Below, one piece after another: positions 53,881 through 56,798 of a stretch of 64,000 nt of DNA. The DNA lies in assembly GCA_004028775.1 (NCBI GenBank), contig RXGA01000002.1, positions 248,001-312,000 of the forward strand. Direction: 5' to 3'. The notes under the pieces were generated by a model. That model was not told where the DNA came from. It did not search any database and was given only the letters and a program-made list of their open reading frames with translations. Both the position numbers and the translations under genes were made by a program. Within the stretch, counting starts at the first letter, position 1, and every line of letters begins with the position of its first letter. This DNA is from Candidatus Methanosuratincola subterraneus (GTDB lineage Archaea; Thermoproteota; Methanomethylicia; Methanomethylicales; Methanomethylicaceae).

Positions 53881-56376
53881 TCACTTCATCGCTGCCCAAG
53901 TTGACCTTATGGCCTCGACGAAGCGCTTTGTCGCTTCTTCGGGGTTCGCTGACTTTGTTATTGCGCCCCCGACGACCAGCACGCGCGCCCCTGCCTTGAC
54001 CATCTGCGGCACTACCTCGAGCTTTATGCCGCCGGCGACTGAGACCGGGATCTTGAGGCTCCTCGCCAGGTTCTGCACCAGCGCGACCTTCTGGTCCACC
54101 TCCCGCTCCCTCGACTGGGCGCTTATGCCCACGTGCATGCAGACCATGTCCACGCCCAGCTTCTCGACCTCGAGCGCCCTGGAGAGCGGATCCTTGAGGT
54201 TCATCAGGTCGACCATCACCTTGACATTGTACTTCCTAGCAGCGCCGACCGCGTCAGAGATGGTGTAGTCGTCAGTGGCGCCCATCACAGTGACGATGTC
54301 AGCCCCAGCCTCGACAGCGAGCTCAGTCTCGAGCCAGCCCGTGTCGAATGTCTTGAGGTCTGCCAGGATTGTCGCGTTGGGGCAGGCCTTCCTAAGGGAC
54401 CTCACAGCGTTGAGCCCCTCTGACTTTATCAGCGGGGTCCCAGCCTCGATTATCTCGGCGCCACCGCGGTATGCCTTCTCGGCTATGGGTATGGCATCCT
54501 TCAAGTAGCGCTCGTCTATTGCCACCTGCAGCTGAGGACCTTCGTAAACTGGCTTCAGACCCAATTGCAGCACCTTCTTGCTTGACGGTATACCGTTATA
54601 GTCCCAGCCTCTCACTGCATAGTACTCATTTAATAACCTATCCATGTCGACCGTCTCGCCCTTGGCCGGACCGTCGGGCATCGGGACCTCGGTGAACCTC
54701 CTAGGCAGCGCATCGTCCTTCCTGCTGAAGCCTTCCCTAACGTTGAAGAGGCGCTCGATGTTGTAAATGCGCTCGCCTATCCTGTAGAACTCCTCCCTGT
54801 CCACGTAGAAGCCTGTCGCGCAGGTGAGCAGCCTGGCGTAGAAGTCCGGCTCGAATGCCAGGGTGCTGAAGAGCGCCATAGTCGTGTACTTGCAAAGCAC
54901 GAGGGAGTCCAGCACCGCGAAGACGTCCTGCATTACCTTTGTTAGGGCGGCCTTGTCGTCGTACGAGTTCGGGTTCAGGTACCTTGGCATGCTGAGGATC
55001 TCCGGGACTATCATGAAAGCTCTGAGGTGGCACCCGCCCCTGTTCGAGGTGGCATATGACAGTGCCATGCCCTTCACCCCCCTCGGGTCGTATGCAGGCA
55101 GCTCGAGCCCCTTCACGTGGATCGCAAAGTCATCAGCCTCGAGCTTCTTGGCAGCGCTGCGGGTCCCCTCAGCCAGCAGGTCCCCGATCCCCTCGCGGTA
55201 AGCGGTCATGCGGATCAGCTTGAGCAGGGCCTCGGTGTCGCCGAATTTTGCGTCGATCCCGATCTCCGAGGGCTTGACCTTGCCCTTCTCCGCGCAAGCC
55301 ATCAGGAACCCTATAGCCTGGCCCATCGATATCGTGTCGACGCCAAGCTTGTTGCAGAGATCGTTCGCCACGGCTATCGCATTCAGGTCGCTTATGCCGC
55401 AGTTCGGCCCGAGCGCCCAAACAGTCTCGTACTCCGGGCCCTCTGTCTCTATCGTCTCTCCGGTCGGGAGCCTTGGCTGGGTGATCCTCCCGCACATGAT
55501 CGGGCAGGCGAAGCACCCCTTCTTGCCACGGAGGATGGTCTTGGACATGTACTCCCCGCTCACCTTCTCGGCTTCCTCGAATACGCCTGTGCTGTAGTTC
55601 CTCACCGGGAAGATCCCCGCCTTGTTTATGATGTGGACAAGCACAGAGGTGCCGTACCGGGCAAGCCCGTCTCCGGTTATCGGGTGGCCCTTGAGCACCT
55701 GGATTGTCCTCTTGACCTCCTTCATGAACGCATACCGGTTTGCAAGCGGTATCTCAGCCCTGCCCCTGACGACGATCGCCTTTAGGTTCTTCGAGCCCAT
55801 TACCGCGCCGACACCGCCCCTCGCAGCAGTCCTGTGCTTCTCGTTCATTATCGCCGCGATCTTGACCAGTCTCTCCCCCGCAGGCCCTATGCACGCGACC
55901 CTTGCCAAGGGATCCCCGACGATCTGCTTGAGCCGGTCCTCGGTCTGCGTCGTGTCTAGGCCCCAGAGCGCTGAGGCGTCGTTGAGGCGGGCCTCGCCGT
56001 TGATTATTGAGAGGTAGACGGGCTTGCTGCTCTTCCCCTCGAATATGATGCCGTCATAGCCTGACCGCTTCAGCTCGACGCCGAAATATCCGCCGCTGTT
56101 GGCGTCGAATATTGTCCCAGTGGCAGGAGACTTCGTCGAGACAGAAAACCTGCCCGAAGTGGGGGCAGCGGTCCCGGTCAGGGGCCCAGTCATGAATATG
56201 AGCTTGTTGTCCGGACCGAGCGGATCGGTGCCTGGCTTCAGCTCATCGTAAAGGATTTTTGCCCCGTATCCCCTGCCGCCTATGAACTGCGCGGCAGTTT
56301 CGAAATCAAGCTCTTCTGAAGAGATCTCCCCAGTCGTGAGATCAACGCGGAGTATTCTGTTCATGTAACCGCCCAA
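53881..56376 (-). CDS. Aldehyde ferredoxin oxidoreductase fused to 3-hexulose-6-phosphate synthase
   Basis: 831 residues. Residues about 1-606 are a full tungsten-pterin AOR: the cluster cysteines are at 288, 291, 295 (CFACPIMC) and 495 (LVLCKY), with Glu313 in EGPEYE, numbering almost identical to Pyrococcus AOR. Residues about 614-831 are a complete HPS (OMP-decarboxylase suprafamily): DLKTFD (673-678) for metal and substrate, and His748 in MHVGISAQ. No frameshift separates them; the joint GLKPVYEGPQLQVAID reads through. TTG at 56376 follows GGAGGATCA; family-like MGGYMNRILRVDLTTG begins there. Proposed role: formaldehyde made by HPS in the reverse ribulose monophosphate pathway is oxidised to formate by the AOR half. 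Confidence 0.92.
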   Translation of the reverse strand: MGGYMNRILRVDLTTGEISSEELDFETAAQFIGGRGYGAKILYDELKPGTDPLGPDNKLIFMTGPLTGTAAPTSGRFSVSTKSPATGTIFDANSGGYFGVELKRSGYDGIIFEGKSSKPVYLSIINGEARLNDASALWGLDTTQTEDRLKQIVGDPLARVACIGPAGERLVKIAAIMNEKHRTAARGGVGAVMGSKNLKAIVVRGRAEIPLANRYAFMKEVKRTIQVLKGHPITGDGLARYGTSVLVHIINKAGIFPVRNYSTGVFEEAEKVSGEYMSKTILRGKKGCFACPIMCGRITQPRLPTGETIETEGPEYETVWALGPNCGISDLNAIAVANDLCNKLGVDTISMGQAIGFLMACAEKGKVKPSEIGIDAKFGDTEALLKLIRMTAYREGIGDLLAEGTRSAAKKLEADDFAIHVKGLELPAYDPRGVKGMALSYATSNRGGCHLRAFMIVPEILSMPRYLNPNSYDDKAALTKVMQDVFAVLDSLVLCKYTTMALFSTLAFEPDFYARLLTCATGFYVDREEFYRIGERIYNIERLFNVREGFSRKDDALPRRFTEVPMPDGPAKGETVDMDRLLNEYYAVRGWDYNGIPSSKKVLQLGLKPVYEGPQLQVAIDERYLKDAIPIAEKAYRGGAEIIEAGTPLIKSEGLNAVRSLRKACPNATILADLKTFDTGWLETELAVEAGADIVTVMGATDDYTISDAVGAARKYNVKVMVDLMNLKDPLSRALEVEKLGVDMVCMHVGISAQSREREVDQKVALVQNLARSLKIPVSVAGGIKLEVVPQMVKAGARVLVVGGAITKSANPEEATKRFVEAIRSTWAAMK

Positions 56377-56519: not shown

Positions 56520-56798
56520 ATGAAAGTGAAGGCTGAGTTCTTCGCCGATCTGAGGGAGAAAGTAGGCTGCCCAGCGATGGAACTGGAGATCGCAGGGAGC
56601 ACGCTGCTCGACCTCATAGAGGAATTAGACGCACGGACAGGCGGGGCGCTGATGAAAAATGTTCTTGAGGGGGGGAAGCTGAAAGACCTAGTGAAGGTCC
56701 TCGTGAACGGCAGGGACGTCAGGGGGCTTAGGGGGCTCGAAACAGGGCTGAATGATGGGGATGTTGTCTCTTTCTTCCCTCCGGTCGCTGGTGGCTAG
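56520..56798 (+). CDS. moaD: MoaD/ThiS-family sulfur carrier
   Basis: 92 residues, ubiquitin-like fold. Starts MKVKAEFFADLREKVG and ends VVSFFPPVAGG with the functional GG tail, to be adenylated by MoeB/MoaE-type enzymes and used to make molybdopterin (here likely tungstopterin). The frame opens upstream only in a purine-rich segment; ATG 56520 is chosen. Divergent from AOR-HPS, a common association. Confidence 0.9.
   Translation: MKVKAEFFADLREKVGCPAMELEIAGSTLLDLIEELDARTGGALMKNVLEGGKLKDLVKVLVNGRDVRGLRGLETGLNDGDVVSFFPPVAGG

Follow-up and report, generated by a model that had tools for sequence, protein, structure and literature searches.

The window, as we call the whole 64,000-nucleotide stretch of DNA analysed here, belongs to the MAG of a methanogen of the Methanomethylicota (Verstraetearchaeota) that is 97% complete and encodes McrA. 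On its reverse strand, a single open frame without interruption encodes an aldehyde ferredoxin oxidoreductase (AOR) followed by a 3-hexulose-6-phosphate synthase (HPS), and a MoaD/ThiS-family gene diverges from it (Table 1).

Table 1. Coordinates of the fusion gene, its parts and its neighbour in the window, and of the long DPANN form at other loci
Feature	Position	Strand	Remarks
Fusion gene AOR-HPS	53881..56376	-	831 aa; TTG start 56376; stop 53881-53883
AOR half, residues 1-607	54556..56376	-	cluster Cys and second-shell residues
Linker, ~6 residues (608-613)	54538..54555	-	
HPS half, residues 614-831	53884..54537	-	active-site residues and glycine-rich phosphate-binding motifs
Divergent MoaD/ThiS-family gene	56520..56798	+	frame open from 56406; start probably near 56520
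DPANN AOR-HPS1-HPS2	L053 305-3370; L123 425-3421; L254-L258		

The preliminary description had read one frame holding a full AOR and a full HPS, and both Pfam and the NCBIfam HPS model TIGR03128 confirm this. In numbering from an internal ATG at 56364, Pfam places AFOR_N at residues 3-201 (E 6.8e-85), AFOR_C at 217-603 (E 2.3e-147) and OMPdecase/HUMPS at 610-815 (E 6.5e-34). AFOR_N and AFOR_C together span the full AOR half, as in members of the AOR/WOR family, and the TIGR03128 score of 208 bits (213 bits in the genome search) exceeds the cut-off, which is 200. The TTG is probably the right start, since homologues open with M/L-G-G-Y in the same alignment column. Alignment of the AOR part with solved AORs stops at residue 607-610 and that of the HPS part with HPS structures begins at 614-616, leaving a linker of about six residues, a length that is similar across most relatives. 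Third-position G+C is 0.79 and 0.78 in the two halves of the gene. An AlphaFold prediction of the whole fusion from nine sequences (mean pLDDT 60.5, pTM 0.38) gave a good model for the HPS barrel only.

The AOR half contains the 4Fe-4S ligands Cys288, Cys291, Cys295 and Cys495, all of them present as previously listed in numbering from the TTG. It also contains Thr243, Glu317, Tyr429 and His450, which correspond to the second-shell residues Thr243, Glu313, Tyr427 and His448 (Pyrococcus furiosus numbering) named for AORs (PMC12096430). The glutamate that the preliminary description called Glu313 is present, under its Pyrococcus number; in this protein it is Glu317. All four cluster cysteines and all four second-shell residues are intact in 21 of 21 fusion AOR halves, which thus share with P. 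furiosus AOR (1AOR) and other AORs sensu stricto these residues as well as full-length homology. The P. furiosus enzyme differs in being free-standing and in its Glu332 and His383, the interface iron ligands of the 1AOR structure, which are not conserved in the fusions. Because these ligands are not conserved, the quaternary structure of the fusions may differ from that of P. furiosus AOR. The HPS half retains Asp621, Glu644, the Asp673-Lys675-Asp678 of the DxKxxD motif, His748 and the phosphate-binding glycines, that is, the residues of an HPS, and the DLKTFD and MHVGISAQ motifs noted earlier are both there. Catalytic residues are intact in all non-DPANN HPS halves.

By score, the AOR half is nearest to the broad-range AORs (620 bits with 1AOR, against 389 bits with the FOR structure 1B25). 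Its use of formaldehyde is plausible, but this proximity means that family membership does not imply it. With formaldehyde, one characterised AOR reaches about 1/6 of its best oxidation rate (PMC6365974).

The fusion is widespread in the phylum. In a tally counted by hand, whose HPS threshold missed one divergent copy (genome G022), the full-length fusion, defined by an HPS in a frame no shorter than 798 residues, occurs in 26 of 250 genomes. Three further genomes have fragments that group with the full-length fusions, bringing the total to 29 of 250, and the carriers span seven family-level groups (f1, f3, f6, f13, f15, f28 and f40). Fusions among 61 relatives are 45-97% identical over essentially their whole length. 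The preliminary description had called for a search for the domain pair and had named separate genes in all close relatives as a refutation; in most close relatives the two enzymes are joined and not separate. Free HPS takes the place of the fusion in two f1 genomes, G008 and G018. Beyond the phylum, one MAG of Candidatus Hecatellales (L051) and the DPANN MAGs L053 and L123 also carry fusions. The reading of the gene as an assembly join or frame error can be discarded with near certainty, as the same frame recurs in many independent MAG assemblies. As a separate observation, G008 has two free HPS genes (L234, L235), one with Gln in place of the catalytic His.

In a maximum-likelihood tree of AOR halves with 20 free AORs and five solved structures, the 21 fusion AOR halves form one clade (98/72). 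This tree does not include FOR, GAPOR or WOR5, and it is the bit scores that favour AOR over FOR. The HPS halves likewise form one clade (95/97), with the exception of the divergent G022 copy, whose very long branch makes its placement unsure. The two clades suggest that the fusion is probably ancient and arose once, and the simplest reading would be one old fusion event that was then passed on by descent, with some transfer. G022 belongs to the same taxonomic order as the source genome, and its fusion (family f2; L027 241-2733) lies in the same gene neighbourhood as in the window.

A divergently oriented MoaD/ThiS gene adjoins the fusion in the source genome and at 10 further loci of three families, and probably serves pterin cofactor synthesis. 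A functional link to the neighbouring fumarase genes was also considered and was dropped, as this synteny is confined to f1 (and G022); elsewhere among the families the position is taken by CTP synthase or different genes.

The metabolic setting was examined by genome-wide searches, which covered the source genome except for about 2.5 kb at the contig ends. The fusion is the sole HPS of the genome. PHI is present over its cut-off, as it is in most fusion genomes tested, and the genome search detected no Fae, so that both checks proposed in the preliminary description came out as it anticipated. With E. coli queries, which distant versions could escape, no homologue was found for zwf and gnd (G6PDH/6PGDH), talB, fsaA or purH, and transaldolase went undetected; the same queries found RpiA and a split transketolase. 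No complete route for the regeneration of ribulose-5-phosphate was found in the genome. On the formate side, there are two adjacent PurP-family genes of 345 and 367 aa (L184/L185; genome C6:158465-160607) and a PurT-like ATP-grasp protein at 271 bits, under the cut-off of 339. FTHFS is absent from the source genome and from every fusion genome of the 250-genome sample; it occurs in nine of the 250 genomes, none of them fusion carriers. We therefore reject a flow of formate into FTHFS, the route proposed for Culexarchaeia. A molybdopterin oxidoreductase at L179 scores below all curated cut-offs and was not called as a formate dehydrogenase.

The relation to Fae is less strict than the absence of Fae from the source genome might suggest. 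Fae is missing in 24 of the 29 fusion genomes, and the other five (G026, G030, G032, G034 and G036), all of family f6, carry a standalone Fae as well as the fusion. Fusion and Fae are not mutually exclusive, and the absence of Fae is no specific evidence, because Fae occurs in just 51 of the 250 genomes and most HPS-bearing ones are without it. The earlier proposal that the fusion is an alternative to Fae agrees with the source genome; as a strict replacement it fails on the f6 genomes and on the rarity of Fae in the phylum, which allows no claim of anticorrelation. Pfam finds no Fae domain within the fusion protein, which is accordingly not a Fae-HPS fusion; any likeness to one could only be functional.

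Reversed RuMP reactions are the pentose source of many archaea and release one formaldehyde per pentose. The balance of the evidence tilts slightly toward a bifunctional enzyme in which HPS runs in reverse to yield ribulose-5-phosphate and the formaldehyde set free is oxidised by the AOR half to formate, with possible use by PurP/PurT. PHI, encoded elsewhere, would convert fructose-6-phosphate to hexulose-6-phosphate, which the HPS half would split into ribulose-5-phosphate and formaldehyde. The tungsten-pterin site of the AOR half would oxidise the formaldehyde to formate, and its 4Fe-4S cluster would pass two electrons to ferredoxin. HPS condensation is reversible and is normally the favoured direction, so removal of formaldehyde would draw the equilibrium toward pentose while also shielding the cell. 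The formate could then be used by PurP and PurT, purine enzymes that depend on it, a link that gene content suggests may exist, and one protein would supply both the ribose and the formyl carbon of the same nucleotides.

Direction, formaldehyde as the AOR substrate, channelling and the use of formate are the parts of this scheme that we infer. It draws on the conserved full-length fusion with its short linker and intact catalytic residues, and on a genome with PHI and no Fae. Reverse RuMP with formaldehyde oxidation, as the preliminary description had it, fits the sole HPS, PHI, the undetected G6PDH, 6PGDH and transaldolase, and the fused relatives; it fits less well with an AOR half that by score lies further from FOR. 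Several points weigh against the proposed function: Fae and the fusion occur together in f6, the AOR half is nearer to broad-range AORs than to FOR, the split transketolase would allow some pentose-phosphate interconversion without HPS, the absence of transaldolase comes from E. coli queries only, and the PurT-like protein does not reach its curated cut-off.

Other uses of the same two domains have to be weighed. Both halves use up formaldehyde in their favoured directions, the genome contains McrA and its relatives are methyl-reducing methanogens, which would suit a defence in which HPS mainly fixes, and AOR oxidises, formaldehyde from outside or from the metabolism of methylated compounds, with pentose formation secondary. 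We regard this as unlikely, as it leaves unexplained why the fusion is the sole HPS in a genome without detected transaldolase or oxidative pentose-phosphate enzymes. The wide substrate range of AOR-type enzymes (PMC12096430), together with the grouping of the AOR half with broad-range AORs, would also permit another aldehyde, for instance acetaldehyde or glyceraldehyde, the fusion then merely co-regulating or stabilising unrelated enzymes. Against this stand the nature of the fusion partner, which is specifically a formaldehyde-releasing enzyme, the retention of the fusion across deep divergence in several phyla, and the known HPS fusions, whose partners Fae and PHI are formaldehyde-linked or belong to RuMP; such an unrelated pairing seems to us improbable.

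The opposite direction would take advantage of the normally favoured, reversible HPS condensation: on the AOR half, reduced ferredoxin would convert formate to formaldehyde, for the HPS half to trap on ribulose-5-phosphate before it can escape. AORs are capable of reducing non-activated acids to the aldehydes (PMC12096430), and a formate-formaldehyde-RuMP route with other enzymes has been proposed for Desulfurococcus (PMC7143981). However, the formate/formaldehyde couple lies at about -450 to -650 mV (quoted in PMC7143981), which is hard even for ferredoxin, the E. coli queries found no transaldolase for the regeneration of ribulose-5-phosphate, and without a reverse-running fusion net pentose would be left to transketolase only. 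We consider this direction very unlikely; if true, it would make the protein a naturally occurring module that fixes formate in two steps within a single polypeptide, with entry into sugars.

Fusions of HPS to Fae and to MenG have been described (PMC5241800), and Fae-HPS (PRK13307; Methanospirillum, Methanosarcina and others) is thought to capture formaldehyde from reverse HPS (PMC5241800). There, as here, HPS is covalently joined to a formaldehyde-consuming enzyme, but Fae is a condensing enzyme that feeds tetrahydromethanopterin, whereas the partner in AOR-HPS is an N-terminal tungsten redox enzyme with formate and reduced ferredoxin as its proposed products. HPS-PHI of Thermococcales (NF041755) and HPS-RraA/MenG (PRK07028) also place homologous HPS halves within larger archaeal polypeptides; their partners, the next RuMP enzyme and an RraA-like domain, are not redox enzymes. 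Oxidation of RuMP-derived formaldehyde by AOR has been proposed from genome annotation for Culexarchaeia (PMC9723716) and Brockarchaeota (PMC8065059). The accessible text of these two reports presents the same metabolic idea with a separate AOR, does not mention a fusion, and leads formate into folate-linked pathways via FTHFS, which is absent here.

Searches limited to the open-access literature turned up no AOR-HPS fusion, and none of the NCBIfam models matched by the protein represents one; it is apparently undescribed, a novelty that we take as provisional. Archaeal HPS is already known to combine with partners that handle formaldehyde or belong to RuMP; this fusion adds to them, and has a plausible, testable role. 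The conserved covalent link to a tungsten oxidoreductase offers a candidate sink for formaldehyde, and a product, where Fae is missing. Purine synthesis continues in an M. maripaludis fdh double mutant (PMC10025317), which leaves the origin of free formate in methanogens unsettled, and a protein giving ribulose-5-phosphate and formate together would tie the fate of formaldehyde to the formate source of PurT/PurP. An aldehyde producer and an aldehyde oxidiser on a short linker would also be a useful model for the transfer of a toxic intermediate.

The DPANN fusions take a longer form of about 1000 aa with two HPS copies, found in 7 of 34 genomes of one DPANN phylum. In all seven members examined, the first copy has lost Asp8 and the phosphate-binding end and keeps DxKxxD intact, and the second keeps Asp8 and the His and has lost the last Asp of DxKxxD. 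In this superfamily, the last Asp of DxKxxD is supplied by the partner subunit. Given these complementary losses, the two copies resemble a covalent pseudo-dimer that has a single active site.

Other arrangements of related domains were seen in passing. Another protein with two degenerate HPS-like copies occurs in the same DPANN phylum (L257 8650-10929 and L259 1724-2743, both on the reverse strand), and in L257 a sugar-isomerase-like sequence follows the two copies. At three Thermoplasmata loci (L052, L062 and L072), an HPS-RraA fusion gene is preceded on its own strand, at a distance of about 2-3 kb, by a 775-aa AOR-family gene, the two being separate genes and not fused. A ferredoxin-like gene adjoins the AOR-family gene in L062 and L072.
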